Below are positions 135 through 14,400 of a DNA stretch of 50,215 bases, piece by piece. The notes beneath the pieces are model-generated. The model did not search any database, was not told the DNA's origin, and worked only from the letters and a program-made list of their open reading frames with translations. Numbering within the stretch: position 1 is the stretch's first letter; every line of letters begins with the position of its first letter. The DNA is from a virus. Position numbers and translations under genes: made by a program. The stretch lies in IMG/VR virus record IMGVR_UViG_3300022890_000030, positions 1 through 50,215 of that record. The stretch is one strand, 5' to 3'.

Positions 135-173
135 ATATTTATTTATTAAAGTTTGTTAGATAGGTTGTTTATG

Positions 174-524: not shown

Positions 525-544
525 ACTATAGTTGTTTAAATGAT

Positions 545-754: not shown

Positions 755-760
755 ACATAT

Positions 761-880: not shown

Positions 881-907
881 CTCTAATTCAGATTCATCAT
901 CAACCTA

Positions 908-1762: not shown

Positions 1763-1765
1763 ATA

Positions 1766-2011
1766 TTAATTAAAGTCTGGCATGTCAAACATACCTTTTG
1801 GCTTAGGTTCTTTCTTTGGTTTAGCTGTAAAAGTTTTTGCTTTTGTCTTTGCTTCCATAAATTTTTGTATCTCTTTCAATAATGTTTCATTATGAAACCT
1901 TGAATATTCTTTTATCTTTTTTGACAAAAAACTTAATTGTTTTCCTTCTAATTCTACTCCTAACTCCTTCAAACCATTATAAATTGTCTTTCTAAATTCA
2001 CCTAGTGTCAT
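1766..2011 (-). CDS. hypothetical basic protein, first gene after the structured leader
   Basis: 81 residues with no recognised domain. A helical N-terminal 50 residues is followed by a Lys/Pro-rich tail (KPKKEPKPKG) ending MFDMPDFN. It is the first cistron behind the promoter and folded leader, and ends three bases before the DUF4373 replication gene starts, so the two are almost certainly co-expressed. A replication accessory role is inference from position only. Confidence 0.65.
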   Translation of the reverse strand: MTLGEFRKTIYNGLKELGVELEGKQLSFLSKKIKEYSRFHNETLLKEIQKFMEAKTKAKTFTAKPKKEPKPKGMFDMPDFN

Positions 2012-2029
2012 ATTTAAAATTTATAAATT

Positions 2030-2130
2030 AAAAAAACCGAAAGGCTCAGTAAGTGCAAACACCCAATCACAAGTGCGGTGGAATGATTACCACCTCTTAC
2101 CGAACCTATCGGTTCTTTAAATTTTGTGAT
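2030..2130 (-). ncRNA. structured leader with terminator-like 3' end (possible attenuator or sRNA)
   Basis: Between a consensus promoter and gene 1766-2011, the minus-strand RNA can form several helices. 2096-2114 pairs with 2035-2053 at 16 of 19 positions and is directly followed by seven U. 2090-2094 pairs with 2077-2081 (GGUGG/CCACC). 2124-2130 pairs with 2066-2072 (seven pairs), which crosses the first helix as a pseudoknot. The 5' arm can instead fold on itself as GAACC-GAUA-GGUUC (2102-2115). Mutually exclusive folds next to a U-run are what attenuators and riboswitches use. No known riboswitch class is recognised. Confidence 0.55.
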
Positions 2131-2170
2131 CGTTTTTCGCATACAATATTTTTTATATTAAGTGATTGAA

Positions 2171-2199
2171 ATTATACCACAAAAAAAAGTGTTTGTCAA
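2171..2199 (-). promoter_or_regulatory. sigma-70 promoter with extended -10
   Basis: On the minus strand: TTGACA (2199-2194), 17-base spacer, TATAAT (2176-2171), with TGG just before the -10 giving an extended -10. Transcription should start near 2164 and read the structured leader and the replication genes. Confidence 0.85.
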
Positions 2200-2261
2200 G
2201 TCTAAGGTGGATTAACTGTTTGCTTTGGGGAAAAATAAAAACACCCTTTTTGAGAGTGATT

Positions 2262-2270
2262 TTATCCACA
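2262..2270 (+). promoter_or_regulatory. DnaA-box 9-mer
   Basis: A perfect TTATCCACA lies just past the 3' end of the HNH-like gene, about 60 bases from the replication-gene promoter. Two other perfect copies are in the 10.4-10.85 kb hub. Confidence 0.4.
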
Positions 2271-2275
2271 GGCTT

Positions 2276-2611
2276 TTACTTTTTACTTTTGAAAAAATCC
2301 GGTGAGCATGACTTGCATAAGATCATTAGGTTATTTAATTTGTAGTCCTTGTCGTCGTTTTTCTTTACCACCACCAATTTATTGCGTGGTTTCTTTACCT
2401 TGCATTTTTTACAAGTAAAATTGTCTCTTTCAAGGGCTTGTTTGGTTATTCCCCTTCTTCCATAGTTCTTGATCTTGCTACTATGTTTTTTGTAGTATTC
2501 TTTTTGGTAGCATTTTTTGCACAGTTCTTTCGTAAAAATCTCTCCTCCGCAGGTTTTACATTTCATAGAATTATTGAGGTTATTACTGTTAATAAAATTA
2601 TGGCGATCCAT
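2276..2611 (-). CDS. HNH-like zinc protein lacking the catalytic His (degenerate nuclease)
   Basis: 111 residues with a CKTCGG...CKKC zinc pair near the N-terminus and a second half that follows the HNH layout: ALERDNFTCKKCK, a beta turn, then LNNLMILCKSC. Where intact HNH enzymes have His-His before the loop, this protein reads LVVVKKNDD, so the metal-binding and catalytic His is missing. It probably binds DNA or zinc without cutting, or is a decaying homing endonuclease. It lies next to an intact HNH gene of the NUMOD3 type. The start is ATG with T at -1. Confidence 0.6.
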   Translation of the reverse strand: MDRHNFINSNNLNNSMKCKTCGGEIFTKELCKKCYQKEYYKKHSSKIKNYGRRGITKQALERDNFTCKKCKVKKPRNKLVVVKKNDDKDYKLNNLMILCKSCSPDFFKSKK

Positions 2612-2648
2612 ATTATATTGCCTAGATATTTACGCATGGTATAAATAT

Positions 2649-3137
2649 TTAAGATTTAATTTTTTTGGCTTTACCTTTGTAATTGTCTGTAAGTTTATGG
2701 CATTTTTTACATAGTGTTTTTCCATTTTCCAATTTTGTTCTTAGTTTTGGATAGTTAGAATAATTTTTGATATGATGTGCTTCTAAATAACAACCTTTTA
2801 AACCACAGTCTTGACATGTATATTTGTCTCTTTTAAAAACAGTTAATCTCCAATTTTTGTATGCCATGTCTTGTTTATGGTAAGGTCTTTTGTTTTTTCT
2901 ACCTACCCTATCATAATATTTTTTTAGGCTTTTACTTACTTTTTCTCTTGTTTCTTTTGATACTTTTACACCTTTTTTAGCTTTACTAATTTTTTCTCTT
3001 GTTTCTTTTGATACTTTTTTACCTTTTTCTGATTGGCTTATTTTGAGTTTTGTTTCTTTTGTGTGTTTAATTCCAAGTCTACCATTAGACTTTCCTTTTT
3101 TTGCTAGGCTTATTTTTTGTCCGACTGTCAATGTCAT
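2649..3137 (-). CDS. NUMOD3-HNH homing-type endonuclease
   Basis: 162 residues. The N-terminal 75 carry three to four tandem copies of a short basic DNA-binding repeat (KISxxxKGxKVSKETREK), the NUMOD3 type typical of homing endonucleases. The C-terminal half is an HNH domain: RDKYTCQDCG, EAHHIKNYS, then NGKTLCKKCHKLT, so the His pair and both zinc CxxC units are intact. Expected activity is site-specific DNA nicking or cleavage that spreads the gene. Its start overlaps the stop of the interrupted gene upstream (ATGA). No intron surrounds it, so it looks free-standing. DNA copies of the repeat are visible at about 2930-3060. Confidence 0.85.
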   Translation of the reverse strand: MTLTVGQKISLAKKGKSNGRLGIKHTKETKLKISQSEKGKKVSKETREKISKAKKGVKVSKETREKVSKSLKKYYDRVGRKNKRPYHKQDMAYKNWRLTVFKRDKYTCQDCGLKGCYLEAHHIKNYSNYPKLRTKLENGKTLCKKCHKLTDNYKGKAKKIKS

Positions 3138-3430
3138 AATCCTATTGTTTCTAAATAATTTTTATTATTTCCTCCATTAATTAAACGAATACTAATAGCT
3201 TCTTTTGTTTTTTCGTTTAATTTTTTTATAACTTTTTTTTGATTAAAAATATCAAACATAGCCAAAATATACATAAAATTATCTCGTACATTTTCTAAGT
3301 CTTTTATTTTTTCTATTTTTTCGGTAGCATAGTTGTAGGTGTCGTCGTATGTTTTTCAGATCTCTATGGCTTTTTCTTTGATTTCATCAAATTGTTTTTT
3401 CTTTGGTGGTAGATAATATAGTTTAGTCAT
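3134..3430 (-). pseudogene. interrupted small gene, in-frame TGA at codon 25
   Basis: An ATG with T at -1 (3430) opens a 98-codon frame ending in a TGA that overlaps the next gene's ATG (ATGA), the junction style of a real operon gene. The frame is broken only by TGA at 3358-3356, where the context EI*KTYDDTY suggests an original Trp (TGG to TGA). Downstream residues (NYATEKIEKIKDLENV and so on) keep a helical, lysine-rich composition like the neighbours. Long genes in the window contain no TGA, so this is not a recoded stop. Family unknown. Confidence 0.6.
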
Positions 3431-3433
3431 ACC

Positions 3434-3631
3434 TTAAAAAGTTAAATATTTATAATCGGTACACTGTCCCGTATAATTTTTCCACTCGTCGTTATCCCAG
3501 TTTTCGTTACAGTGAAACACGACCCAAGCGACTTTTCTTTCATTATCAAACGCCTTTATTTTTCCCCTTTCTTCTGCAAAACCATTTGAATAAGTGACCC
3601 ATTTCCCTATGTCTTTTTTTGATAGTTTCAT
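3434..3631 (-). CDS. hypothetical small SH3-like protein
   Basis: 65 residues. The start IGKWVTYSNGFAEERGKIKAF resembles the first strands of small KOW/SH3-like barrels (GxWVxY...GKI), and the protein is rich in Trp and Asn (NENWDNDEW). No catalytic residues are apparent. It sits three bases upstream of the interrupted gene in the operon. Confidence 0.6.
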   Translation of the reverse strand: MKLSKKDIGKWVTYSNGFAEERGKIKAFDNERKVAWVVFHCNENWDNDEWKNYTGQCTDYKYLTF

Positions 3632-3636
3632 AGTAT

Positions 3637-3921
3637 TTATTTCCTTCCTTTTGTTAGTTGTTTAAAGTCTTTGTTGGCTTCTTTCACTAGAATAGTTTCC
3701 AATTGTTTAGCAATGTCTTTTACAGGATCTATCAGTTGATATGGAAGTTCAAACGCCATTGAGTCTGAATAAGCATAGCCAGATGTTAATGTGAATGTGC
3801 TTATTCTTTTTTCTCCTGCAAATAAACCAATCATAGCAGACACTTCGGGCATGTCCTCTTTTAATTCTACTTGGTATGATAATATTTTTGCGTTGTTTAT
3901 TCTTATGTCTATTTTTTTCAT
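3637..3921 (-). CDS. hypothetical protein, 94 aa
   Basis: Not recognised. An alternating hydrophobic pattern in the first 60 residues (DIRINNAKILSYQVEL, then STFTLTSGYAY) predicts beta strands, followed by an amphipathic C-terminal helix with a basic end. It lies five bases from the following gene, so translation is probably coupled. Confidence 0.6.
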   Translation of the reverse strand: MKKIDIRINNAKILSYQVELKEDMPEVSAMIGLFAGEKRISTFTLTSGYAYSDSMAFELPYQLIDPVKDIAKQLETILVKEANKDFKQLTKGRK

Positions 3922-3930
3922 AATATATTT

Positions 3931-4113
3931 TTATTGTTCTAATAATCTTTTTTTAATCTCGGTTCTTATTTCTGATGGTGGTGGTATTCTGTAATTAAAA
4001 TTACATTTATTGCACATAAAAAAAGATCCATACTTACTATTTCTTTTCTTCATTTTTCCTAGATAACATCTTTGGCATGGATCATCTTCAAGTATAGTTT
4101 TTTCTTCAAGCAT
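3931..4113 (-). CDS. C4 zinc-ribbon protein
   Basis: 60 residues with CQRCYLGKM at 13-21 and CNKCNF at 34-39 around KYGSFFM. This is the pattern of topoisomerase-I-type C4 zinc ribbons (CxxC, KxGxFxxC). It is likely a nucleic-acid-binding module on its own. The start has T at -1. Confidence 0.65.
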   Translation of the reverse strand: MLEEKTILEDDPCQRCYLGKMKKRNSKYGSFFMCNKCNFNYRIPPPSEIRTEIKKRLLEQ

Positions 4114-4131
4114 AAAGAAAATTAAATTGAA

Positions 4132-4647
4132 TTATTCGCTTTTTTCTATTTTTTTCATCAAATCTTTTTTAGTCCATTCTTTGAAAGTGTAGTTTTTGCC
4201 GTCGTTGACTGATACAGTTTCATTATCTAAATTAATTTCATAACAATATTCACAAAAAATATCATCTTTCTTAAAGTCTTCGTTTAATACCACGCTCTTT
4301 ACTGTGCCATCTTCAATCAAGCGAAGTATACCAGCACCATGATCTCTGCTTAGAGTTGGGTATTTTTCATTTAGTTTGTTTATTTTATTAGAACTCACAA
4401 ATTCCTCTTCGTATTCATCACCAAAAATTTCTTTTTTGTCCTTGAGATATTGTTTATCTAGCTTAAATTCTATCAAGGTATTCACTTTCTTTTTAAAACT
4501 GTTCAATTTTTCTGCGGTAAGCAAGTGTTCTTTGATAAAGTCTGCTATCTCTTGCCCTTGTCCTGTTGGGTATCCGTCCCATTGTCCGTATTGTGCGACT
4601 TTTGTTTTGTCGTTTAATTTAACGACTGTGAGGTTTCTCGTTCCCAT
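4132..4647 (-). CDS. conserved phage protein of the MGTRNLT...YGQWDGYP type
   Basis: 171 residues opening MGTRNLTVV and carrying KVAQYGQWDGYPTGQG. I recognise this signature as a recurrent uncharacterised family in phages and metagenomes, with no known function. A conserved acidic C-terminal half holds a small Cys pair (CEYC). Its leader contains TTATTCTTAACC, similar to the conserved start-proximal sequence of the two hairpin modules further right, and is preceded by a boundary repeat. Confidence 0.7.
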   Translation of the reverse strand: MGTRNLTVVKLNDKTKVAQYGQWDGYPTGQGQEIADFIKEHLLTAEKLNSFKKKVNTLIEFKLDKQYLKDKKEIFGDEYEEEFVSSNKINKLNEKYPTLSRDHGAGILRLIEDGTVKSVVLNEDFKKDDIFCEYCYEINLDNETVSVNDGKNYTFKEWTKKDLMKKIEKSE

Positions 4648-4669
4648 ATATTTTTAGGTTAAGAATAAA

Positions 4670-4695
4670 TTTTTTGGGGTAAGTCGGTTGCTTTT
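4670..4695 (-). repeat. gene-boundary repeat, copy 1 (divergent)
   Basis: The plus strand reads T-run, GGGGTAAGTCGGTTGC, TTTT. It lies directly after the stop of the gene at 4694-5065 and before the next gene's leader. It is the least conserved copy, lacking the C before GGGG. Confidence 0.5.
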
Positions 4696-5065
4696 ACAAC
4701 TCTGCGTCAAAATTACACTCTCCATTTTCTTTGACACATTTCTGTATCTTCTCTCCTAAGTGTAGACGTGCGTAAACTTCCAATAATTCTGGTATTCTAT
4801 TCTTTGGTATATCTGTTTCCTTTGCTATCATTATGTCGTTATAACCATTATTATCATTAAAAAAAGTGTCTAGTTCTTTTTTGTATTTACCTAGTTCTGT
4901 TTTACATTTCTTTATACCTGCTTTTATTTTTGGCAAGTCGCTTTCATCAAAATAATAATTCAATTCTGTTGCCTCTCCCTGTACTCCAAAATGATCTGCG
5001 TCGTCTGATGATTGAACGCCGAACCAAAACTTGCCCTCTATATCTCCTGAAAAAAATCTACCGAT
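4694..5065 (-). CDS. hypothetical protein with apparent AUC start codon
   Basis: The visible frame includes FFSGDIEGKFWFGVQSS, then ELNYYFDESDLPKIKAG, which looks coding throughout. No ATG, GTG or TTG lies at its beginning. The first plausible start is ATC at 5065-5063, preceded by T as at almost all other starts (TATC). The only standard candidate, TTG at 4963-4961, has A at -1 and would cut 34 well-formed residues. With ATC the protein is 123 residues. AUC or AUU initiation is known but rare in bacteria. A recent ATG-to-ATC mutation is an equal explanation. Function unknown. The last codons run into a boundary repeat. Confidence 0.6.
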   Translation of the reverse strand: MGRFFSGDIEGKFWFGVQSSDDADHFGVQGEATELNYYFDESDLPKIKAGIKKCKTELGKYKKELDTFFNDNNGYNDIMIAKETDIPKNRIPELLEVYARLHLGEKIQKCVKENGECNFDAEL

Positions 5066-5179
5066 ATGATTGTGTCATTAATGTTATTGTTTCCATTAAT
5101 GATATTATTGATTTAATTCTAAATATTTTTGTATATTTAGTTTTATTGTATGATGACTAAGATTAAATTTTTTACCTAA

Positions 5180-5380
5180 TTATTTCCTCTTGTTTTTTAA
5201 GGCAGTAGCCCAGCAAAAACAAGTTTCTATCCCGCATGAGGAAGTGTAGATAAAAAATTCCTCGCCCTTTTTATTTTTTGCTTTTCCCATGCACTCGTTT
5301 GTTTTACCTCTAAGAAAAGTGAATGGTTTAATGATAGTTAGTACACCTCTATTGTCTGTTGACACTTCATTTTTTTCCAT
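5180..5380 (-). CDS. hypothetical protein, 66 aa
   Basis: The start is set at the second Met (MEKNEVST), which has the TATG context; the upstream Met lies inside the previous gene. A Cys cluster near the end (CGIETCFCWA) may bind metal. No family recognised. Confidence 0.6.
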   Translation of the reverse strand: MEKNEVSTDNRGVLTIIKPFTFLRGKTNECMGKAKNKKGEEFFIYTSSCGIETCFCWATALKNKRK

Positions 5381-5397
5381 ATATTTATATTTAAAAA

Positions 5398-5664
5398 TTA
5401 ATAACAATAATACTCTATATAGTCCTCGCCGTCCATGTCTTTGAATATTCTCTGTAAAGATATTTTATCCTCCATAATCTGTACAGAAGGATAAGGGATT
5501 ACACTTAGTTTGTGTAATTCCTCTTGTACAGTTTCTTTTTCGTAAGTCAAAATAATCTGTTCGCTTTCATTACCTAAATTATAAATATTCTGTTCTCGTG
5601 ATACGTTGAAAGTTGGATCTTTTTCTGTTTTGATTTCAATTAGTTTATATGCTCTTGTACTCAT
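5398..5664 (-). CDS. hypothetical protein opening MSTRAYKLIEI
   Basis: 88 residues from the Met with TATG context; a longer frame upstream would overlap the neighbouring gene. It has an acidic C-terminus ending DGEDYIEYYCY. It looks like a conserved phage accessory protein, but I cannot name a function. Confidence 0.6.
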   Translation of the reverse strand: MSTRAYKLIEIKTEKDPTFNVSREQNIYNLGNESEQIILTYEKETVQEELHKLSVIPYPSVQIMEDKISLQRIFKDMDGEDYIEYYCY

Positions 5665-5674
5665 ATTTTTATAA

Positions 5675-5857
5675 TTATCTTGAATAATGGTCGTCGCAAT
5701 AGAAATGTCCGCTACAATCAATTGGCTCGTCTTCATCTCTATTTATAAAATCTCCGTTTGGCATTACGTTATAAATTACACGTATATCTTCCTCAAAGAT
5801 AGTAGCTGGTTTGTCGCACTCTTCGCAGGTGTGGTCGTGTTGGGGTTTTGTTGGCAT
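5675..5857 (-). CDS. Cys/His-rich zinc-binding protein
   Basis: 60 residues from MPTKPQ. CEECDKP near residue 10 and CDDHYS at the end, with His8 and HFYC, form a probable treble-clef zinc site. The middle is acidic (NRDEDEPID). No recognised family. Confidence 0.6.
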   Translation of the reverse strand: MPTKPQHDHTCEECDKPATIFEEDIRVIYNVMPNGDFINRDEDEPIDCSGHFYCDDHYSR

Positions 5858-5944
5858 AGGGTTATAGATTAAATAAACATAATACAATTATAATTAAAAA
5901 CATTATGATATTAAAAATAATTATTTTTTGCATATAGGTTAATA

Positions 5945-6169
5945 TTAAGAGTTAAAGCTAGATGTCGCTTGTTTTTTGTTTGTACCATAACAATGTTTTC
6001 TGCCGTCGGTAGCGACAAAGCCGTTTGTCATTTCCTCCCCATTCTGTAAATTAAAAGTGTACATTGGAAGATAGGGGAAACCACCTTCGCCAAATTCAAA
6101 TTCACTAACTGCTTTGTTATATTTACCCCTTGCTTGATGATTAAATTCTTGTACTGTTATTATTTGCAT
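5945..6169 (-). CDS. hypothetical protein, 74 aa
   Basis: The start is placed at MQIITVQEF because its ATG has T at -1. It is beta-rich, with a C-terminal TDGRKHCYGTNKK segment. It follows the small Cys protein (6180-6347) with no overlap at this start. Confidence 0.55.
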   Translation of the reverse strand: MQIITVQEFNHQARGKYNKAVSEFEFGEGGFPYLPMYTFNLQNGEEMTNGFVATDGRKHCYGTNKKQATSSFNS

Positions 6170-6179
6170 ATTTGTGTGA

Positions 6180-6347
6180 TTATTTAGTGTCGGAGTTGTA
6201 AATAAACTTTTCGGCAAGGTCTATATCGTCGCCACCAATAAGATGATTACAGGGGCAGTCAATATTTAGACAACGGAATTGTCTTTTTTCTTTTACCTCT
6301 TCTATAATTCTTTTGATTGCTCCTTGTTGTTCGGGTGTTATTTGCAT
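6180..6347 (-). CDS. small Cys-rich protein, 55 aa
   Basis: MQITPEQQGAIKRIIEEV gives one helix, then FRCLNIDCPCNHL with three Cys and a His, a possible zinc site. ATG has T at -1 and the frame ends with TAA just before the next gene, so it fits the operon. No family known. Confidence 0.5.
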   Translation of the reverse strand: MQITPEQQGAIKRIIEEVKEKRQFRCLNIDCPCNHLIGGDDIDLAEKFIYNSDTK

Positions 6348-6365
6348 AGTGTTTGGGGTTAGTTA

Positions 6366-6860
6366 TTAATTAATTTGTCCGTCAAGAGTAAAATCATAAT
6401 CGTTAGATTTGAGTATATCAATAATGTTTTCGTCTTCTTGGGCTGTTTTCATTACATCATATCCATACTCCTCAAGGTCTTTGCAAATTTCTTGGTATAG
6501 ATCTTCAAAATCTTCTTCAATTTTTGGCATATATATTTGTATGTCCTCTTCGTCGTATATGTCAACAACTTTGCTGTATGAGTGGTAGTAGTTTCCAGAT
6601 TGTTTTATAACTATTGAATACTCTTTCCAGTCAAAACTACCCTCAAACATTGCTCCGTCGCCTTGGCTATAAGATAGAGAAAAATAGCAGTTTGCTTTGC
6701 CCTCAATCTTGTGTTTTTTTAATAGTTCGTCAAGATGATATTGCATATCGTCTGGTAGAAAAATAAACTCTTCGTCGTCTCTCCATTTGTTTATGGCTAG
6801 TTCTTGGCTGTCTTTTGGTAGTTCTTCAAATTTGTATACTGTGTATGTTTTTGTTTTCAT
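6366..6860 (-). CDS. conserved phage protein of unknown function
   Basis: 164 residues. YKFEELPKDSQELAINKWR and YFSLSYSQGDGAMFEG are the two signatures of a widespread uncharacterised phage family. It is strongly acidic, with a helical C-terminus. No enzyme motif is clear. It is expressed behind a leader with a 10-bp hairpin and conserved start-proximal sequence. Confidence 0.65.
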   Translation of the reverse strand: MKTKTYTVYKFEELPKDSQELAINKWRDDEEFIFLPDDMQYHLDELLKKHKIEGKANCYFSLSYSQGDGAMFEGSFDWKEYSIVIKQSGNYYHSYSKVVDIYDEEDIQIYMPKIEEDFEDLYQEICKDLEEYGYDVMKTAQEDENIIDILKSNDYDFTLDGQIN

Positions 6861-6864
6861 ACTA

Positions 6865-6922
6865 TTTAGATTAAAGAATAAACGGAGGCAAGTGATATGG
6901 TATCGCTTGCCTTGCGTTTAGG
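6865..6922 (-). repeat. start-associated hairpin module A
   Basis: Upstream of the gene at 6366-6860. A 10-bp stem (6887-6896 with 6902-6911, five-base loop, one G-U) is bracketed by GATTAAAGAATAAACGG on the gene side and CTTGCGTTTA on the other. Module B has the same brackets but a different stem sequence. It resembles the extended start-associated sequences of some mycobacteriophages in design, not in sequence. Confidence 0.6.
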
Positions 6923-6927
6923 CTTTA

Positions 6928-7323
6928 CTATATATTTTCCTTTACAAAATTAATTACTCGCTCCCAATTATCTTTTTTTAGTGTCTGTGTGTTATTACTT
7001 CCACCAGTATAATCTTTTGAGTGCTGTGCTGTTCTATAAAGTACGTTCCCCATTCCGTCGTTGAGTGATATATAAACTGACTTTGTGCCGTCCACTGATG
7101 ATATAAAGCCCGATATATACCCTCTATCTATTGAACCTGACGGGTTTTTACTTGCATTGACAAGTATACCTTCAACTTCTTGTGCTGTTGCTTTGAGTAA
7201 AGATAGTCCAGTTGATAGCCATTTTTTCTTCTGACTTGCGTCTTGGTCTGTTTCATTTTCTCCACTATATGGTAGGTCGTTGTAGTTAACTGCGTTGACT
7301 TCCCAAAATTTATGGTTTCGCAT
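6928..7323 (-). CDS. hypothetical protein, 131 aa
   Basis: Soluble and beta-rich (GYISGFISSVDGTKSVYISL), with a C-terminal amphipathic helix (DNWERVINFVKENI). I do not recognise a family. It is preceded by module B, so it is probably expressed and regulated like the 164-residue gene next to it. Confidence 0.6.
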   Translation of the reverse strand: MRNHKFWEVNAVNYNDLPYSGENETDQDASQKKKWLSTGLSLLKATAQEVEGILVNASKNPSGSIDRGYISGFISSVDGTKSVYISLNDGMGNVLYRTAQHSKDYTGGSNNTQTLKKDNWERVINFVKENI

Positions 7324-7325
7324 AT

Positions 7326-7381
7326 ATTTAGATTAAAGAATAAACGGGGACGGGTAAACGTTTACCCGTCTTGTGTTTATG
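7326..7381 (-). repeat. start-associated hairpin module B
   Basis: A perfect 22-bp palindrome (7349-7370, GACGGGTAAAC and its complement) lies between the same flanks as module A: GATTAAAGAATAAACGG and CTTGTGTTTA. The arms share no sequence with module A, so the fold or symmetry rather than the sequence appears conserved. Confidence 0.65.
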
Positions 7382-7415
7382 CTCTATTCATAGTGCTATG
7401 GTTAAAATTTAAGGG

Positions 7416-7628
7416 TTAATTTTTTTCGGGGCTAGTCGGTTGCTTTTGGTTTATTTCCCTTAAGAGTTCTAGTTCACTCTCACTATATAGCATTTTAAGG
7501 TTGTTATATTCATCTTGGACGGCTCTGTATGTCTTTTCTGCTTGTATGCTATCTGTATCTTTTATAAAGTTTTTCATCTTGTCCCACTCTGGTTTTATGA
7601 TTTTCTTTTGTTCTTCTGTTATATTCAT
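7416..7628 (-). CDS. hypothetical helical protein, 70 aa
   Basis: Mostly helical and charged (MNITEEQKKIIKPEWDKM). Its last residues, KQPTSPEKN, are encoded by boundary-repeat copy 2. The neighbouring unrelated gene ends KQPISPEKK for the same reason. Function unknown. Confidence 0.55.
   Translation of the reverse strand: MNITEEQKKIIKPEWDKMKNFIKDTDSIQAEKTYRAVQDEYNNLKMLYSESELELLREINQKQPTSPEKN
7421..7447 (-). repeat. gene-boundary repeat, copy 2
   Basis: TTTTTTCGGGGCTAGTCGG followed by TTGCTTTT. Just to its left, at 7398-7415, is ATGGTTAAAATTTAAGGG, which also accompanies copy 3. Confidence 0.65.
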
Positions 7629-7631
7629 ATA

Positions 7632-7880
7632 TCAATTTTTAAATTCAGGTAGCTTAGTTAAATATTCCGCTGTAACCTGGGCCTGCTGTGTGATCTGCCT
7701 TTGCCATGCTTTGTTAGTTGGTGACCATCTGAAACCGTGCATTTTTGTGAGTGTTATGGTATAGATATCTCGCTCCTCTTCGTCGCTTGGAAAGTATTTA
7801 TTAGTTTTCAAATAGTCTGCTTGAAAGTTTGTATTTGTCTTGATTAAAAACTTTCTAGCTTGTTTTTTGTACTCGTCCAT
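7632..7880 (-). CDS. hypothetical protein with GFRWSPTNKAWQR motif
   Basis: 82 residues. The motif GFRWSPTNKAWQRQIT recurs in uncharacterised parts of large phage and plasmid polyproteins and antirestriction-type proteins, where its function is unknown. The rest is helical. It ends three bases upstream of the next gene. Confidence 0.6.
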   Translation of the reverse strand: MDEYKKQARKFLIKTNTNFQADYLKTNKYFPSDEEERDIYTITLTKMHGFRWSPTNKAWQRQITQQAQVTAEYLTKLPEFKN

Positions 7881-7891
7881 ATTGTTAATGG

Positions 7892-8119
7892 TTAAAATTT
7901 AAGGGTGTATTTTTTTTCGGGGGATATCGGTTGCTTTGTTGTCTGTATGAGTTCGTCCCTTATAGAAGATAAATAGTTTATAGTGATATATCCTCCACGT
8001 TCTTTTGATATTTCTTGATCTCCTAAGAGTATTTTTATATTTGGTCGTTGTAGTTCATCAATTATATTTTGTATTCTATTAATTTGATGTTCTATTATAT
8101 TTCTATTTGGTAGTTTCAT
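7892..8119 (-). CDS. hypothetical protein, 75 aa
   Basis: A long helix (EHQINRIQNIIDELQ) is followed by a short beta segment. The C-terminus KQPISPEKKY comes from boundary-repeat copy 3. No family recognised. Confidence 0.5.
   Translation of the reverse strand: MKLPNRNIIEHQINRIQNIIDELQRPNIKILLGDQEISKERGGYITINYLSSIRDELIQTTKQPISPEKKYTLKF
7908..7940 (-). repeat. gene-boundary repeat, copy 3 (reference copy)
   Basis: The plus strand reads T-run, then TCGGGGGATATCGGTTGCTT, TGTT. It is identical over about 33 bases to copy 5, 1.1 kb away. Copies sit at 3' ends of minus-strand genes and sometimes code for their last residues. They do not form a stem plus U-run in the direction of transcription, so a simple terminator role is unlikely. 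A protein-binding site or recombination linker is inference. Confidence 0.75.
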
Positions 8120-8156
8120 ATTTTAGTTTAAATTTCCTAGTGTATACTCTTTGCTT

Positions 8157-8375
8157 TTAATTTTCTTTTTTATAAACCATAATTGATTTGTCTGTTCCTT
8201 GTGTTATGGTTAATAGTAAATTATAATTTTCATTTTCAAGTTTTGTTTTTTGTTTTTCTGCTTTTGTTATTTTTAAATTATAATTCCAGTCAAAAGTTAT
8301 AATTTTAATATCCATAAATTTGTTAATTTGTATTTTTGTTTTGTTATCTAGTTGAATTATGTTTTTGGTTATCAT
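8157..8375 (-). CDS. hypothetical protein, 72 aa, first gene after promoter
   Basis: Lys/Asn/Ile-rich and predicted beta strands (KIQINKFMDIKIITFDW). It is the first cistron behind the promoter at 8410-8438. Function unknown. Confidence 0.5.
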   Translation of the reverse strand: MITKNIIQLDNKTKIQINKFMDIKIITFDWNYNLKITKAEKQKTKLENENYNLLLTITQGTDKSIMVYKKEN

Positions 8376-8409
8376 AGTCTTATATTAGTGAGTAAATTTG
8401 TACCTGTTT

Positions 8410-8438
8410 ATTATAACACAACTGTATAAAAAAGTCAA
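8410..8438 (-). promoter_or_regulatory. sigma-70 promoter
   Basis: On the minus strand: TTGACT (8438-8433), 17-base spacer, TATAAT (8415-8410), followed by AAACAG. The promoter at 48.4 kb has the same TATAATAAACAG block. It should drive the genes from 8375 leftwards. Confidence 0.8.
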
Positions 8439-8495
8439 TAGCGATTATGTATAAAACGTGTAAGATTAGTTATTTTTAAAATAAAAAGTAAATAG

Positions 8496-8642
8496 CTATA
8501 AAAAGGGTTTCATTTGCTTAGTCAAAAAACTAACTAGACTAATTTTTTTCGGGGCATACCGGTTGCTTTTTCTTAGTTTGCGTAAAAACATTATAACTTT
8601 TATGTCTGCTATAAGATAACGTATAGCTTTTAATATTTTCAT
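8496..8642 (-). CDS. possible small basic protein, 48 aa
   Basis: An open frame from an ATG with T at -1 gives MKILKAIRYLIADIKVIMFL, a hydrophobic-basic helix, then a basic tail. The tail crosses boundary-repeat copy 4 in a different frame from that used by other genes, so the end may be non-native. A membrane peptide is possible. Confidence 0.35.
   Translation of the reverse strand: MKILKAIRYLIADIKVIMFLRKLRKSNRYAPKKISLVSFLTKQMKPFL
8543..8570 (-). repeat. gene-boundary repeat, copy 4
   Basis: TTTTTTTCGGGGCATACCGG followed by TTGCTTTT, inside or just after the small ORF at 8496-8642. Confidence 0.6.
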
Positions 8643-8653
8643 ATGGTTGTATA

Positions 8654-8992
8654 TTAGTTAGTTAATTTTTTTAATCTTTTTATTTCTTTTGTCGGTATAA
8701 TGAAAGCAAGTAAACATTTTTTGTTATGGTATGAGCCTGTTTTATTTCCACAAAAAGGGCATTTTCCTTTCTTAGTCCATTTTCTTATTCCTGTTGCTCG
8801 GTATTTTTTAGCATATCTAATCATCTTATATTTTTGATAATTTTTCTTATAATATTCAGGATCTTCTTTTTTCTTTTTTTCTCGGTATATTTTTGCTTTT
8901 TTTAGTCTTTTTTCTTTTGTTTCTACAAGGTATTTTTTTGTATAAGATATACCTTTCAGGGTTTTAAGCCATTTAATTTGTCTGCTTGGCAT
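8654..8992 (-). CDS. basic zinc-knuckle protein
   Basis: 112 residues, very Lys-rich, with long basic helices (KRLKKAKIYREKKKKEDPEY) and one C-terminal zinc unit, KCPFCGNKTGSYHNKKC. This resembles the zinc half of HNH or recombination-associated proteins, but no HNH active site is seen. A nucleic-acid-binding role is likely from charge. Confidence 0.55.
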   Translation of the reverse strand: MPSRQIKWLKTLKGISYTKKYLVETKEKRLKKAKIYREKKKKEDPEYYKKNYQKYKMIRYAKKYRATGIRKWTKKGKCPFCGNKTGSYHNKKCLLAFIIPTKEIKRLKKLTN

Positions 8993-9018
8993 ATGGTTTA
9001 ATTAAAAAATTAAATAAG

Positions 9019-9051
9019 GTATTTTTTTTCGGGGGATATCGGTTGCTTTGT
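9019..9051 (-). repeat. gene-boundary repeat, copy 5
   Basis: Identical to copy 3 over about 33 bases. It follows no complete gene; the only frame across it is an 18-codon stub, ending KQPISPEKKY, like the ends of two real genes. This may mark a deleted gene. Confidence 0.7.
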
Positions 9052-9314
9052 TTTAAGTTTCTCCATATCATCTATATACAAAATCTCTATTGGTCATGTT
9101 TCTTGTTTTGGTGTTTATTTGTCTTATTTTGGCTAGTTATAGGGTAATTTGTAGGGCTTTTGGGTTGCTTTGTAGGGTTTTAGTTTTTAAAATGTAGGTG
9201 TTTTTGTAGTTTTTTTATTGTTTTTGTTTGTAGGTGTTTTTCTGTTGTTTGTAGGTTGTTTGGTTTACTTTTCTTTTATAGGGCTTTTGGTTGTTTGGTG
9301 GGTGAGGATATACA
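9052..9314. other. gene-free stretch with extreme G/T strand bias
   Basis: No convincing ORF on either strand. The plus strand is almost only T and G, with loose repeats of GTAGGTGTTTTT and TAGGGCTTTTGG, so the minus strand is C/A-rich. With the G-rich repeat beside it, it separates two transcription blocks. It could be single-strand-prone DNA or remains of a lost gene; nothing identifies it further. Confidence 0.4.
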
Positions 9315-9356
9315 AACACTCTACCCCACATACCCACTCCCCTCTACTTTTTAAAA
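9315..9356 (-). repeat. C-rich 42-bp repeat, copy 1
   Basis: The plus strand runs ACACTCTACCCC, CATACCCACTCCCC, TCTAC, T-run. It differs from copy 2 at two positions. On the minus strand it is G-run-rich (four G runs), so a G-quadruplex is possible. It lies directly downstream of the hairpin at 9368-9388. Confidence 0.7.
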
Positions 9357-9367
9357 ATAATCAAGCC

Positions 9368-9388
9368 ACTAGACAAAAAATGTCTAGT
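9368..9388 (-). terminator. hairpin, probable terminator of gene 9396-9776
   Basis: A perfect 8-bp stem ACTAGACA/TGTCTAGT with a five-base loop. On the minus strand T-rich sequence follows after about nine bases (GATTATTTTT). The distance makes it a weak terminator. Confidence 0.5.
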
Positions 9389-9395
9389 AGTCTGA

Positions 9396-9776
9396 TTAGT
9401 TAAAAAATTTATGGTTATATTTTTCTTGTATTTCGTCGGCTTTGTCGTGCCAGTTGTCGATTTTTACTTGTAAAGCATCGCACTCGTAGTCTGTTTTCCA
9501 TTCGTCTAGGATATAATCGGGGATATCTTCATCTTCATCATCTTGATATAGTTCTCTATTTTCTATGCTTTCCTTTGCGTTCTCTATGGTTTTTGGGTAA
9601 TCTATTTCAAAGCTTTTATAAGTACCAAAATCGTGAGGGTTGTTTTTTATTCTAACAGTCCCTTCAATAATGTTAAACTCTTTGCATAGAAAATTGAAAG
9701 ATTGCTCCATTAGAGAATTGAAAGACTCCTCCACTGGTTTGATTGGTGTATCGATAGTAGTATAAGTACCTTGCAT
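9396..9776 (-). CDS. hypothetical acidic protein, 126 aa
   Basis: A strongly acidic centre (YQDDEDEDIPDYILDEW) with helical ends. It is not recognised, and no Cys/His metal site is evident. It starts with TATG context and is closed by the hairpin just past its stop. Confidence 0.6.
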   Translation of the reverse strand: MQGTYTTIDTPIKPVEESFNSLMEQSFNFLCKEFNIIEGTVRIKNNPHDFGTYKSFEIDYPKTIENAKESIENRELYQDDEDEDIPDYILDEWKTDYECDALQVKIDNWHDKADEIQEKYNHKFFN

Positions 9777-9786
9777 ATGTTTTTTG

Positions 9787-9927
9787 TTAAATTATTATAT
9801 ATTTATACCCTTGTCGTAATTTTGGTAGTATCTTTTCGATTAGTTTTTTGGCTTGTTTTATGTTATTTGCATATTGCACTATGTCTTGTCTATCTCCATA
9901 TTGTATGGCTATGTATACTTTACTCAT
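9787..9927 (-). CDS. hypothetical small protein, 46 aa
   Basis: The start is placed at MSKVYIAIQYGD (T at -1); the upstream in-frame Met would read through the C-rich repeat. Beta strand, helix, strand pattern. Function unknown. Confidence 0.5.
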   Translation of the reverse strand: MSKVYIAIQYGDRQDIVQYANNIKQAKKLIEKILPKLRQGYKYIII

Positions 9928-9951
9928 AATTTTTTTTATATTATTTTGCGT

Positions 9952-9993
9952 AAACACTCTACCCCCCATACCCCCTCCCCTCTACTTTTTAAA
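9952..9993 (-). repeat. C-rich 42-bp repeat, copy 2
   Basis: The same 42 bases as copy 1 with two A-to-C changes, again directly after a hairpin terminator and before the next minus-strand gene. On the minus strand it has runs of 4, 5 and 6 G. Confidence 0.7.
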
Positions 9994-10021
9994 AAAACTA
10001 TCCTCCAAAAAGGAAGATAGT
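9991..10021 (-). terminator. intrinsic terminator
   Basis: Arms 9997-10006 and 10012-10021 form a 10-bp stem with one wobble and an AAAAA loop. On the minus strand the stem is followed by seven T. It ends the transcript of the zinc-ribbon gene at 10028-10228 or lowers expression of the genes beyond. Confidence 0.7.
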
Positions 10022-10027
10022 CATGTA

Positions 10028-10228
10028 TTAAAATATTATTTCTGCGAAGTCCTCGCAAGAATATTCCTTGTCGCAAGATGTACAAGTTATACTATCAATC
10101 CCTCCATTTGGTGCTGATTTAATATTTGATAGTGCCCCGTCGGCTTGTACCGCCATTTTATAGGTGTAACTCTCCATAGCATTAAATTCTCTATTCCCGC
10201 ACTCGCATTGTGTTATAAACTTCGTCAT
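10028..10228 (-). CDS. zinc-ribbon protein, first gene of the left minus-strand arm
   Basis: 66 residues: CECG at 8-11 and CTSC at 49-52, with YSCEDF following, a two-CxxC zinc ribbon of the kind seen in small nucleic-acid-binding or transcription-linked proteins. It is the first cistron behind the promoter at 10375-10403 and the folded leader, and is followed at once by a terminator, so it may be expressed strongly on its own. Confidence 0.6.
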   Translation of the reverse strand: MTKFITQCECGNREFNAMESYTYKMAVQADGALSNIKSAPNGGIDSITCTSCDKEYSCEDFAEIIF

Positions 10229-10241
10229 ACATTTTTTATTA

Positions 10242-10275
10242 GTCCCCGTTATTTTCGGGGCTTAGGGTTGCTTTG
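10242..10275 (-). repeat. gene-boundary repeat, copy 6, with own hairpin
   Basis: ATTTTCGGGGCTTAGGG followed by TTGCTTTG, next to CCCCG so that CCCCG/CGGGG forms a hairpin. It lies in the 5' leader of the zinc-ribbon gene. Confidence 0.55.
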
Positions 10276-10286
10276 TTAGAAAGTCC

Positions 10287-10373
10287 AGCGACGGCGTAAG
10301 CATGGTATACACTTTTGACGCTCTTGGTAGAGGTGGTATAACTTCGCCGTCGCTAGGCTCTCTTGTACCTCTA
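10287..10373 (-). promoter_or_regulatory. structured leader with 10-bp closing stem
   Basis: On the minus strand AGCGACGGCG (10354-10345) pairs perfectly with CGCCGTCGCT (10296-10287), closing a 48-base loop. A second perfect match, TAGAGGT (10373-10367) with ACCTCTA (10334-10328), crosses the first. If the transcript starts near 10368, the 5' half of that match is mostly untranscribed, so it may instead be a split DNA operator over the start site. Its GC content is well above its surroundings. Confidence 0.55.
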
Positions 10374-10374
10374 T

Positions 10375-10403
10375 ATTTTAGCACGCCTGTATTGAAATGT
10401 CAA
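10375..10403 (-). promoter_or_regulatory. sigma-70 promoter of the left minus-strand arm
   Basis: On the minus strand: TTGACA (10403-10398), 17-base spacer, TAAAAT (10380-10375). Start expected near 10368. It is divergent from the plus promoter at 10954-10982. Confidence 0.75.
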
Positions 10404-10953
10404 GCAAAACTGTGGATAAAAGTCAACAGCCAAAAGCTATCTTGTGCTTAGGACATATAAGGAAAGTAAACAAGTAACCAGTATGATTGGTCAAGTCTAT
10501 CTAGTACGTTGCTTATATCGCAATTCTAGGTGTCGCACAATATAGTTTATAGTATAGGTTATGGGTAGTGTACTATGTACTATAATCATAATCACTATTT
10601 TGTTTAGCTTGGGTAGGTGGTATGGTATGTGGTGGTATGGTGGTGGTGGCTTGGCTTGGCTCTGGTGGCGAAGGGTGGGGGGTTCGGAAACCAAATCCAA
10701 AATCAGACGGGGCTGGTAATCTGGGGGGGGTATGTAACCTCCCAACCCCAAACCCTTTCTCAAAAAAAAATGAATCCAAAAAAAATACTCATAAAAAATT
10801 TGGGTAGATGTGTTATGGAGCATAACATTTGTTACTGTGGATAACCCATCACTTTTATTCGCTAATGTTAGGGCTTTATTCTTTCTTTGCTTTGATTATT
10901 TCGCTAGGTTAAGGGGAATGTTTAAAGTCTATTCTTGTTTGTATATACTATCC
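10404..10953. other. non-coding hub, candidate replication origin
   Basis: No supportable gene; the ORFs here are low-complexity translations of G-rich DNA. Perfect DnaA 9-mers (TGTGGATAA) lie at 10411-10419 and 10836-10844. An AT-rich stretch with repeated TATAG/TACTAT words spans about 10535-10610. A strongly G-rich plus strand follows at 10610-10730, including eight consecutive G near 10722. Placement between the two divergent arms fits an origin and control region, but this is inference. Confidence 0.45.
10811..10827. promoter_or_regulatory. palindromic site, possible operator
   Basis: A perfect inverted repeat TGTTATG-GAG-CATAACA, nine bases from a DnaA box. The symmetry and position between divergent promoters suggest a dimeric repressor or initiator site. 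Confidence 0.4.
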
Positions 10954-10982
10954 TTGACAAAACTTGATTTCTGTGAGATAAT
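10954..10982 (+). promoter_or_regulatory. sigma-70 promoter of the structural (plus) arm
   Basis: TTGACA (10954-10959), 17-base spacer, GATAAT (10977-10982). Transcription should start near 10990, about 20 bases before terS, leaving a very short leader with no Shine-Dalgarno site. Confidence 0.75.
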
Positions 10983-11009
10983 TAGAGTAGGCGTAATTGT
11001 TTCTTTAAT

Positions 11010-11522
11010 ATGACAAATTTAACTAAACAACAGGAAAAGTTTGTAGAGCTTTACATGTCGAATGGATTCGATGGTTTTCATGCTTATAAAGAAGCTTACG
11101 AGAATTGTGATAGTGATCAAGCTGCTAGAGTGAATGCCTGTAAAGCATTGAAGAATGAAAAGATACTTGAGGCTATTGAAGTAGCTGAGGGTGACTATAA
11201 AAGGATTGCGCGGGAAGAAGGAGTTGATAGGAAGAAAGTAACGGAAAGACTGGCGGAAATTATTAATGGTGAAAAAATTATACTGAAGAAGGTTAAGGAG
11301 TTGGATGCTAAAGGTAAAGTTATTTTGGTTGAGAAAGAAGTGAGAGTGAAACATGATCCTAAAGATATTGTATCGGCTATAAATACCCTTGCGAAATTGA
11401 TAGGAGATTTCTCACCTGAACTTCATAAAGTTACTATGGATGATCAGACTGCACCTGATTTCTCAAAAATGACAGTTGAAGAAAAAGAAGAGTACAAGAA
11501 AAAGTTACTGGCTAATTTGTAG
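11010..11522 (+). CDS. terS: terminase small subunit
   Basis: 170 residues. The opening LTKQQEKFVELYMSNG, then HAYKEAYEN and RVNACKALKNEKILEAI, is the helix-turn-helix core of the Terminase_2-type small subunit, which recognises the packaging site and feeds DNA to the large subunit. The C-terminal third is charged (EEKEEYKKKLLANL) and probably contacts the large subunit. It is the first gene of the plus arm. Its partner terL lies 740 bases on, after a small gene and a folded RNA. The start has T at -1 and no Shine-Dalgarno. Confidence 0.85.
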   Translation: MTNLTKQQEKFVELYMSNGFDGFHAYKEAYENCDSDQAARVNACKALKNEKILEAIEVAEGDYKRIAREEGVDRKKVTERLAEIINGEKIILKKVKELDAKGKVILVEKEVRVKHDPKDIVSAINTLAKLIGDFSPELHKVTMDDQTAPDFSKMTVEEKEEYKKKLLANL

Positions 11523-11542
11523 TCAGTTTTTTTGTTCATTAC

Positions 11543-11555
11543 AATCTAGGGTCAA
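11543..11555. repeat. inverted repeat, left arm
   Basis: AATCTAGGGTCAA, perfectly complementary to TTGACCCTAGATT at 11955-11967, so the two bracket the 125-residue gene. A third related copy (AATTCAGGGTCAA) at 12183-12195 lies in this same orientation. Confidence 0.6.
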
Positions 11556-11568
11556 CAATCTAAAAAAT

Positions 11569-11946
11569 ATGACGAAGAAACTTAAATGGCGGTTGAGTAA
11601 GCTGCCGACACCTCAAGAGGTTATGGAGCTTGTAAATTTCAAGCTTATTACTCAAGACGAAGCAAAAGATATCCTTTTTGGAGAAGTTGACGAGAGAGAT
11701 GAAAAATCTTTCAAAGAAGAAATTGAATTCCTTCGGGGTTTAGTAGAGAAGTTATCTAATAATAGTGAGACTAAAATAATTGAGATTATCCAGGAGAGAA
11801 ATTACACTCAACCTTGGTATCAGCCATATCAGGTATGGTCTACTTCCTACAATTATGCAGGTGCAATACCACTAAATGGAACCATGACTGATGTAGATTT
11901 AGTTAGAGGGGATCAGTCGAGTTTTACTACCATACAAACATACTAA
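11569..11946 (+). CDS. conserved protein between terminase genes
   Basis: 125 residues from MTKKLKWRLSKLPTP (TATG context; the upstream Met overlaps terS). Helical N-terminal two thirds (FGEVDERDEKSFKEEIEFLR, then GLVEKLSNN) carries a coiled-coil-like stretch. The C-terminal 45 residues are Tyr/Trp/Pro-rich (QPWYQPYQVWSTSYNY). I associate the pattern 'KLPTPQEVMELV...DEAKDILF' with uncharacterised phage genes near terminase, with no known function. Its position, bracketed by a 13-bp inverted repeat, suggests a packaging or head role or a cassette that can move as a unit. Confidence 0.6.
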   Translation: MTKKLKWRLSKLPTPQEVMELVNFKLITQDEAKDILFGEVDERDEKSFKEEIEFLRGLVEKLSNNSETKIIEIIQERNYTQPWYQPYQVWSTSYNYAGAIPLNGTMTDVDLVRGDQSSFTTIQTY

Positions 11947-11954
11947 TTCATTCT

Positions 11955-12195
11955 TTGACCCTAGATTATAGTTATTCTTGTCTGGTTCATGGATATGCTT
12001 GTCCTATGAACAAAGCATGGTTCTGGATCATCAATGGTCCAGATAAGAGTACCTAACATTCCGACATATTAAAAGGCAACAAATAGCGGATATTCCCCTG
12101 TATGGCGAATTCCGGATACCCCAACCTGTCTTTGATACTTGGAAAAACATACTCAAATATGTTGGGGTGTTAGTACTTTTACAATTCAGGGTCAA
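11955..12195 (+). ncRNA. multi-helix structured RNA upstream of terL
   Basis: A 240-base non-coding stretch inside the head operon that folds into at least six helices. Closing TTGACCCT/AGGGTCAA (11955-11962, 12188-12195). GTTCATGGA/TCC-ATGAAC (11985-11993, 12002-12011). TCTGGA/TCCAGA (12022-12027, 12038-12043). GTAC-TAACA/TGTTAGTAC (12049-12058, 12168-12176). CGGA-ATTC/GAATTCCG (12087-12095, 12107-12114). ACCCCAAC/GTTGGGGT (12118-12125, 12161-12168); the last shares one base with its neighbour. The nesting gives a closed multi-branch fold. No ORF over 30 codons crosses it, and group I/II intron cores or tRNA features are not evident. It could be a packaging-related RNA, a cis-regulator of terL or an undescribed class. 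A 12-codon ORF (12211-12249, ATG with T at -1) follows. Confidence 0.6.
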
Positions 12196-12264
12196 GTTAA
12201 GTCAGTTAGTATGTTAGAAGAAACTTATAGAGTATTTTCATTCAGCTAAAAAATAAAAAATTTT

Positions 12265-12963
12265 ATGGAAGTAGGATATCTAGAAAAGTTAAAAAATAGT
12301 CCAGAACTGCAAGATGCTGAATGGGGTATCTGTCAGTCAGATCCTTACTACTTTCTCACTACTTGGGCAAAAACTTTGGATGTACATGACGACATAAATC
12401 CTATCAAAACTTTCCCAGAAAAAGATTATATAGAAAGATTTGTTGAAGTCTGGCTCGAAGAGAAACTCTTACTCATACCAAAATCTAGGCAGATGATGCT
12501 TACCTGGTTATGTGTAGGACTTTATCTTTGGGACACGATGTTCCACAAAGGAAAACTCACGTTCTTTCAAAGTAAAAAAGAAGAAGACGCTGATGATTTG
12601 ATCAAGCGTTGCAAATTTATTTGGGATAATCTCCCTAAGTTTCTTCAGAGATATCAAGAAGATGGTATTTTCAAGGAACTTACATGCAACCCACAGAACA
12701 AAGGCCAGCATATCTCTTGTAAGATGTGCTTCCCTGACATCTATTCCGAGATTCGTGGCGTTCCTCAAGGTGGGGATATCGTTCGAATGCACACCTTATC
12801 TGGGTTATTTTCAGATGAGATGGCCTTTCAGAACGAAGCCAAGTCTTCCTTTACAGCTGCACGTCCTACTATTTCAAATGGCGGGCGTATGACTTGCGTT
12901 AGTACAGCCGAGGACAATACTTACTTTCAAGAATTATGTTTTGATTTATTAGAAATCGTATGA
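12265..12963 (+). CDS. terL: terminase large subunit, ATPase half
   Basis: 232 residues. The Walker-A-like loop IPKSRQMMLTW is at 71-81, in the variant form common in large terminases. Walker B is LSGLFSDEMAF with Asp184-Glu185, and the coupling motif is VSTAED at 212-217. This is the packaging motor domain that drives DNA into the procapsid. It stops with TGA, and the nuclease half begins in the -1 frame at an overlapping ATG (ATGA). In most phages the two halves form one protein of about 500-600 residues; together these give 562, and the break falls at the domain linker. Either a true two-gene terminase, a -1 frameshift product, or a single-base error. The short C-terminal end LLEIV joins smoothly in sequence to the next gene's KYADIEHEE. 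Confidence 0.85.
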   Translation: MEVGYLEKLKNSPELQDAEWGICQSDPYYFLTTWAKTLDVHDDINPIKTFPEKDYIERFVEVWLEEKLLLIPKSRQMMLTWLCVGLYLWDTMFHKGKLTFFQSKKEEDADDLIKRCKFIWDNLPKFLQRYQEDGIFKELTCNPQNKGQHISCKMCFPDIYSEIRGVPQGGDIVRMHTLSGLFSDEMAFQNEAKSSFTAARPTISNGGRMTCVSTAEDNTYFQELCFDLLEIV

Positions 12964-13952: not shown

Positions 13953-13953
13953 T

Positions 13954-14384: not shown

Positions 14385-14400
14385 TTAATAATGTAAAAAT

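Follow-up and report, generated by a model that had tools for sequence, protein, structure and literature searches.

A repeated two-box element in the leftward gene block

The virus record IMGVR_UViG_3300022890_000030 (G000 in our set of records) comprises 50,215 bases with a G+C content of 34%, and this complete stretch, called the window in the following, was analyzed for a short repeated element at the boundaries of its small genes. The record encodes terminase genes, a P22-like portal, a major head protein and GroEL, and the structural genes run rightward from 11.0 kb. A leftward block of small genes occupies the record from its left end up to about 10.3 kb, and more leftward genes, including an exonuclease and a RusA-like resolvase, are located at 43-50 kb. 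Judging from its gene content, the leftward block is probably early, and it is headed by a predicted sigma-70 promoter on the minus strand (10403-10375, TTGACA-17-TAAAAT). Downstream of this promoter, in the first 6 kb of the block (4.67-10.28 kb), lie all six copies of the element. All of them are on the minus strand, and there is none on the plus strand or elsewhere in the record.

In mRNA sense the element has the consensus AAAGCAACCG-N5-CCCCGAAAAAA. In detail, each copy consists of AAAGCAACC, six bases (five in copy 10274; copies are named after their 5' end), CCCC, a G or A and a run of A, which can be summarized as AAAGCAACC...CCCCGAAAA. The first box and the CCCC are invariant across the six copies, whereas the spacer, fixed in length in five of them, occurs in five different sequences. 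A two-box weight matrix built from the six copies assigns them 31-34 bits, compared to a maximum of 20.5 bits in 20 order-2 Markov versions of the minus strand. The original prediction, which had been made from the letters of the window, had already reported six copies of a repeat with two of them identical over 33 bases; this count was borne out, and the identity of the pair (7907-7940 and 9019-9052) even extends over 34 bases. Deviations from the consensus given there are TGGGG instead of CGGGG at 4670 and AGGGTTGC instead of CGGTTGC at 10252. A seventh place on the minus strand (9148-9171) scores 21.8 bits and is regarded as a doubtful, degenerate copy, since an unrelated-looking place in a related phage reaches 22.8 bits.

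Position relative to gene starts, protein ends and promoters

Four copies are followed by a substantial gene at short distance. Copy 10274 (10252-10274), with the spacer shortened by one base, has its C-run 28 nucleotides (nt) 5' of the ATG of gene 10028-10228, and an alternative ATG at 24 nt opens just 13 codons. The identical copies 9049 (9022-9049) and 7937 (7910-7937) both have the C-run 39 nt 5' of an ATG, namely that of gene 8654-8992 and gene 7632-7880, respectively, and copy 4694 (4670-4694), which lies right after the stop codon of the preceding open reading frame (ORF), is again 28 nt away from the ATG of gene 4132-4647. For the other two copies, 8569 (8543-8569) and 7446 (7420-7446), the C-run is positioned 37 and 36 nt before ATGs that open only five and four codons. 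Copy 8569 is located within an ORF of 48 amino acids (aa; 8496-8642) and about 100 bp upstream of a predicted promoter (8438-8410), and copy 7446 is followed by a hairpin leader and then gene 6928-7323. Altogether, four of the six copies lie at most 62 nt upstream of an ATG that opens an ORF of at least 50 aa, with 0.91 expected (p = 0.006), and including the doubtful copy gives four of seven (p = 0.012); a test on four hand-picked copies (4/4, p = 0.0007) was not relied on.

The four genes behind these copies, all on the minus strand, have no similarity to each other. For the 66-aa product of 10028-10228, neither PHROG (E up to 0.1) nor Pfam (E up to 1) gave a match. The 112-aa product of 8654-8992 likewise lacks one in PHROG (E up to 0.1), and its Pfam matches are weak and below the cut-off. 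The 82-aa product of 7632-7880 resembles the C-terminus of the phage primase family PHROG 19458 (E 6e-7), and the 171-aa product of 4132-4647 belongs to a widespread phage protein family of unknown function. When relatives were queried with the small genes, 8654-8992 retrieved none and 7632-7880 two partial ones. Among 57 hand-chosen starts, read by eye and in some cases a few bases off, the majority has an AT-rich leader that lacks a clear Shine-Dalgarno sequence, so that the element is not the general start signal of the phage.

It had also been proposed that the element sits at the 3' ends of six genes or leaders and makes unrelated proteins end in KQPxSPEK. Such an end is found in two substantial ORFs only, 7416-7628 (KQPTSPEKN, encoded by copy 7446) and 7892-8119 (KQPISPEKKYTLKF, encoded by copy 7937), which are 70 and 75 aa long and have nothing but the eight end residues in common. 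An 18-codon reading at copy 9049 ends similarly, copy 8569 is read in a different frame within its 48-aa ORF (KSNRYAPKK), copy 4694 follows a stop codon and the leader around copy 10274 has no convincing ORF. Furthermore, the spacer changes are non-synonymous in the KQPxSPEK frame, as read from the alignment. Because the reading frame differs between the copies and the tail is common to two substantial ORFs only, we rejected the idea of a peptide tail in favor of a nucleotide element, and the protein ends are incidental. Of the proposed location, the two ORF tails stand, but the steadier relation of the element is that to the next start codon. PLSPEKL mini-ORFs in another phage contig (L114:17842-18957) were also considered and set aside: the three short ORFs at gene boundaries, two with PLSPEKL and one with PLSLKKL, are similar as protein, but they represent another sequence in another phage, which has a related replication protein.

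The element also does not coincide with a terminator or a sigma-70 promoter. None of the ten terminator-like sites in 1-11100 overlaps a copy and the leaders of the six copies have no common fold, in agreement with the earlier statement that the repeat is not shaped as a terminator. There is no TATAAT or TTGACA hexamer at a fixed distance from the copies; the best -10-like hexamer reaches a mean of 3.83 of 6 matches compared to 2.87 (standard deviation 0.55), which is the top of 150 offsets. A directional site located 5' of genes might nevertheless be a promoter for a phage-modified polymerase, with the first box as upstream contact, in particular as a small protein with a Sigma70_r4 domain is encoded at 45333-45635 on the minus strand (Pfam E 3.9e-10, above the cut-off), which could be a phage transcription factor. 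The missing hexamer and the two copies that have no substantial gene directly behind them make such a promoter improbable. Sigma-54 promoters, defined by a consensus with -24/-12 spacing, would have to point in the reverse direction: on the plus strand GG-N10-GC with TTGCTT can be placed by eye in all six copies. However, the run of four G makes this spacing easy to achieve, TGGC does not retain its C, such a site would not include the conserved T-run and five or six of these promoters would run antisense into the block. We consider this explanation hardly credible. The spacings between the copies, 480-2752 bp, also make iterons of a replication origin unlikely.

An alternative at the RNA level would be an element of the mRNA leader whose C-rich, G-poor boxes are recognized by a translational regulator or a small RNA, which would set translation or decay of the gene behind. 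This would fit an element that is always transcribed in sense orientation 28-39 nt from a start codon and whose boxes are mostly unpaired in the predicted folds, and the general lack of an obvious Shine-Dalgarno sequence makes another kind of start control plausible. On the other hand, there is no common fold, Rfam gave no match at gathering score in 4500-10500 (two weak matches below that score lie away from the copies) and the distance to the start varies widely for the comparable sequence in related phages described below. We regard an RNA-level element as unlikely. Pairing with the 3' end of 16S rRNA was dropped as an explanation, as it would require a stable helix to be opened. With regard to individual folds, the C-run of copy 10274 is able to pair with a GGGG just downstream, and a long stable stem is predicted at 10278-10363 (minus strand), in the leader that separates the promoter at 10403-10375 from the first copy; the fold of this 150-nt leader has about -50 kcal/mol.

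Related phages and the history of the copies

A motif scan of related genomes had been suggested as a check, and no cluster of the element of the window was found in any relative searched. A capsid alignment query, evaluated for the best 80 of 192 loci, added 13 new ones (L237-L249), whose best segments have 60-68% capsid identity, and a query with the large terminase found 50 loci. Exact matches to the element were absent from three family records, two of them without the region, and from 14 others, many of which are fragments without the block; among seven of these 14 that were looked at, only G013, G012 and G004 reach past the small terminase gene by more than roughly 1.5 kb. Four of 13 further family records contain scattered loose matches (seven listed places, some overlapping). 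The best matrix score in L237-L375, the 22.8 bits mentioned above, belongs to L329 and lies on the strand opposite to its early genes; at the same place there is a second repeat, which contains AAGCAACC. In 2.67 Mb of loci, 132 locus-strands exceed 20 bits, mostly in loci fetched by the pattern itself, with at most two places per strand. A pattern scan of IMG/VR, from which records very near the window were perhaps left out, retrieved 18 stretches with one match each and no multi-copy case, and a scan of genome contigs for a host element yielded at least 117 scattered stretches, of which the 80 listed have one match each with no taxon prominent. One good-looking copy each in L011 and L012, located in a divergent region beside a terminase gene, was taken as chance. 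DNA similarity to named phages was found neither for 1-25000 at high identity nor for 4600-10450 at lower identity, and in the two nearest named podoviruses no leader 10-mer occurs in more than two genes.

Two near-identical contigs, found via the capsid protein, end at window positions 10,723 and 10,732 and thus without the leftward block. Several relatives likewise end near the small terminase gene terS, beside the early block. Such contig ends, among them those of G001, G002, G009, G007 and G015, suggest that the early region may vary or assemble badly in many samples. As G001, G002 and G009 have no early small-gene block, the absence of a repeated tag there is uninformative.

Several relatives contain a different repeated sequence. 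In G013 (L323) and G018 (L335), which belong to the class with 60-68% capsid identity, TCCACWTAAGNCRC occupies the corresponding region ahead of the small terminase gene. With at most one mismatch there are nine sites in G013 and seven in G018 on the early strand and none on the other strand; exact occurrences number four in G013, eight in G018, two in G004 and one in G020, that is, in four of 11 records. The sites are on the minus strand (L323:118-8470, L335:113-7877, L318:130-350), and looser copies in the same sense occur in L351 (G020; two) and L329 (G019; three). Outside the family, TCCACWTAAGNCRC with at most one mismatch appeared once among all loci compared, in L011. G012 has another repeat, AGAGCTTACGGCTCAAAAAATA, in three copies.

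This tag of the relatives is also associated with starts: six of nine sites in L323 (p = 0.0003) and five of seven in L335 (p = 0.0004). Among the 24 sites listed from six loci, 18 have a start within 75 nt, counting ORFs that have 35 codons or more or run into the contig end, and the distance from the first base of the tag to the start is 15 nt in four cases and 17, 20, 20, 21, 21, 28, 28, 29, 30, 30, 43, 53, 53 and 59 nt in the others. In four L335 copies the start codon follows directly after the tag. Such a range of 15-59 nt speaks against a plain ribosome-binding role. The tagged genes include homologs across phages (L323_3969 and L335_3281 with 30%, L335_7877 and L351_3431 with 48% identity) and two paralogs in L335; the remaining ones have no similarity. 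One tag copy of L335 (around 5990-6102, minus strand) precedes both a hairpin and sequence that by eye resembles the 5' half of an initiator tRNA; ARAGORN reports no tRNA there.

Within the window, the upstream 40 nt are alike in none of the 15 pairs of copies, so that an origin in one recent duplication, which had been named as an argument against the prediction, does not apply. Downstream, the leaders of copies 7937 and 7446 are clearly similar, to a degree exceeding that of all random pairs compared (up to 3000), and weak similarity was found for 7937/4694 (p = 0.002), 9049/4694 (p = 0.035) and 9049/7937 (p = 0.042; values uncorrected for 15 pairs). The core of copy 7937 is that of 9049, yet its leader is closest to that of 7446, whose core has a different spacer. 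This suggests that cores and leaders have partly separate histories, with exchange between copies as the simplest account, and would lend indirect support to the earlier proposal of a recombination joint that lets small genes be swapped.

It is conceivable that the element is a functionless by-product of such events, the best-kept part of short leader cassettes copied inside the early block by homologous recombination. The similarity of cores and leaders points in this direction (61 bp at 87% for 7937/7446, 63 bp at 79% for 8569/9049 and 34 bp exact for 7937/9049), as do other leader duplicates nearby (6863-6885/7325-7347 and 9314-9357/9952-9995) and the exonuclease and RusA-like resolvase encoded by the phage. 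However, copies 4694 and 10274 have little or no flank similarity and still kept both boxes with a varying spacer, and the relatives have a tag of their own where mostly unrelated genes start. A mere by-product seems rather unlikely. The first of the leader duplicates is a 23-nt repeat common to genes 6860 and 7323 (6855-6935 and 7318-7400, minus strand), each of which has a strong hairpin just 5' with a different stem sequence; the second, 44 bp with 95% identity, lies directly downstream of two predicted minus-strand terminators.

A possible regulatory site and its counterparts in other phages

Taken together, a repeated, directional, start-associated sequence is, to judge from the records compared, present in several members of this phage family. 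We tentatively favor the explanation that a trans-acting factor recognizes the element as a start-associated regulatory site, a reading that is quite possible. The original prediction had offered a binding site as one option, and this appears to be its better half, as the two boxes, the near-constant spacing, the single orientation, the association with starts and the different tag of the relatives would all fit. As the relatives do likewise with a different tag, a regulatory label for a group of genes is a better description than a protein tail or a terminator. In this model a two-box site (AAAGCAACCG, five free bases, CCCCGAAAAA) would be placed in the leaders of a subset of genes, always oriented with transcription, and a probably phage-encoded factor acting in trans would read it and control the expression of each tagged gene. 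Recognition at the DNA level, as operator or transcription roadblock, seems somewhat likelier than recognition of the RNA. The use of another sequence for a comparable tag in related phages implies that the site, and presumably also its reader, changes between lineages. A further-reaching version, which we consider doubtful, is that the family marks a set of its early genes with a start tag whose phage-encoded reader changes along with it, that the lineage of the window swapped TCCACWTAAGNCRC for an unrelated two-box tag and that tags travel with leader cassettes, recruiting any small gene behind them.

Several points weigh against a regulatory site. The element of the window is known from one genome only, so that no conservation between species can be used, two of six copies precede only ORFs of four to five codons and the 62-nt limit of the start test was set after the distances were known. 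No reader was found: the Sigma70_r4 protein at 45333-45635 has no match in L237-L375, loci that cover little of the replication region. The data also fit action at the DNA and at the RNA level alike. In the relatives, six of the 24 listed TCCACWTAAGNCRC sites have no start, the sites at 1100 and 1059 of L318 are weak, two L315 sites are probably chance occurrences inside coding sequence and L336_284 repeats L335_7877. In addition, the best TATAAT match 5-6 nt upstream of their tag has a mean of 3.89 of 6 compared to 3.05 (standard deviation 0.34; top of 150 offsets), a signal that we read as the AT-rich TTAA before the tag. Finally, the element of the window and TCCACWTAAGNCRC differ in sequence as well as in distance to the start, and their equivalence is a guess.

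The position of the element recalls the start-associated sequences (SAS) of cluster K mycobacteriophages (PMC3203893), whose role is described as still open (PMC11373665, PMC12699233). Like the element, SAS are short and asymmetric, occur many times within the non-structural genome region, nearly always in one orientation and at the starts of genes from different families, and sometimes include the upstream stop codon (PMC3203893). SAS contain AGGAG and are typically located 3-7 bp from the start (PMC3203893), whereas the element has another sequence without a Shine-Dalgarno core. Orientation and region agree, with starts at 28-39 nt and substantial genes at four of six copies, but the 13-bp SAS consensus GGGATAGGAGCCC is not present in any of the six. 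In position, the tag of the relatives with its 15-59 nt is nearer to SAS. The extended SAS (ESAS) resemble the element in lying farther upstream of some starts, and their consensus varies by subcluster (PMC3203893, PMC11373665). They are characterized by imperfect inverted repeats of 17 bp together with putative SigA-like -35/-10 hexamers (PMC11373665), whereas the six cores contain no inverted repeat and no hexamer at fixed spacing. Both SAS and ESAS have been surveyed in 188 cluster K phages (PMC12699233).

The stoperators of cluster A mycobacteriophages are also asymmetric sites at gene boundaries that are oriented with transcription and numerous in each genome (PMC9283540), and the copies in the window are arranged in the same way. 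Stoperators are read by a monomer with two DNA-binding domains (PMC9283540), and two invariant boxes with a free spacer may recall this two-domain contact. The protein bound to stoperators is the phage immunity repressor, which blocks elongation. In contrast, the sequence is another one and L5 has more than 20 13-mers genome-wide (PMC9283540) compared to six copies in one block here; a repressor was not recognized among the proteins of the window that were scanned, which are a subset of all its proteins. The promoter-stem-loop (PeSL) cassettes of T4-like phages, outlined in PMC4503421, are likewise repeated regulatory sequences between small genes and tied to gene shuffling, but they consist of an early promoter and a stem-loop, neither of which is part of the element. 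Literature searches on SAS, stoperators and PeSL gave nothing on these phages within the library and terms searched.

An SAS-like arrangement in unrelated, uncultivated phages, with sequences that differ among close relatives, would open the reader to a comparative approach, as the protein or RNA in question is expected to alter its specificity together with the tag. The arrangement also hints at how small genes newly gained by a phage might be placed under control.

Repeats at gene starts were also noticed in other contigs. In L067, an AT-rich phage contig, TTTTTAAGTTCTCCC-like repeats are found on the plus strand at ten gene starts (10 places in 1357-14757), and a second box, TTCTAT or TCTAT, keeps a nearly fixed distance from them. 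In L091, L092, L094, L105 and L106 a repeated TGTCAGAGGG- or TGTCTGACCC-like sequence precedes -10-like hexamers by a short distance at several gene starts, an arrangement that would resemble an operator within the promoter.

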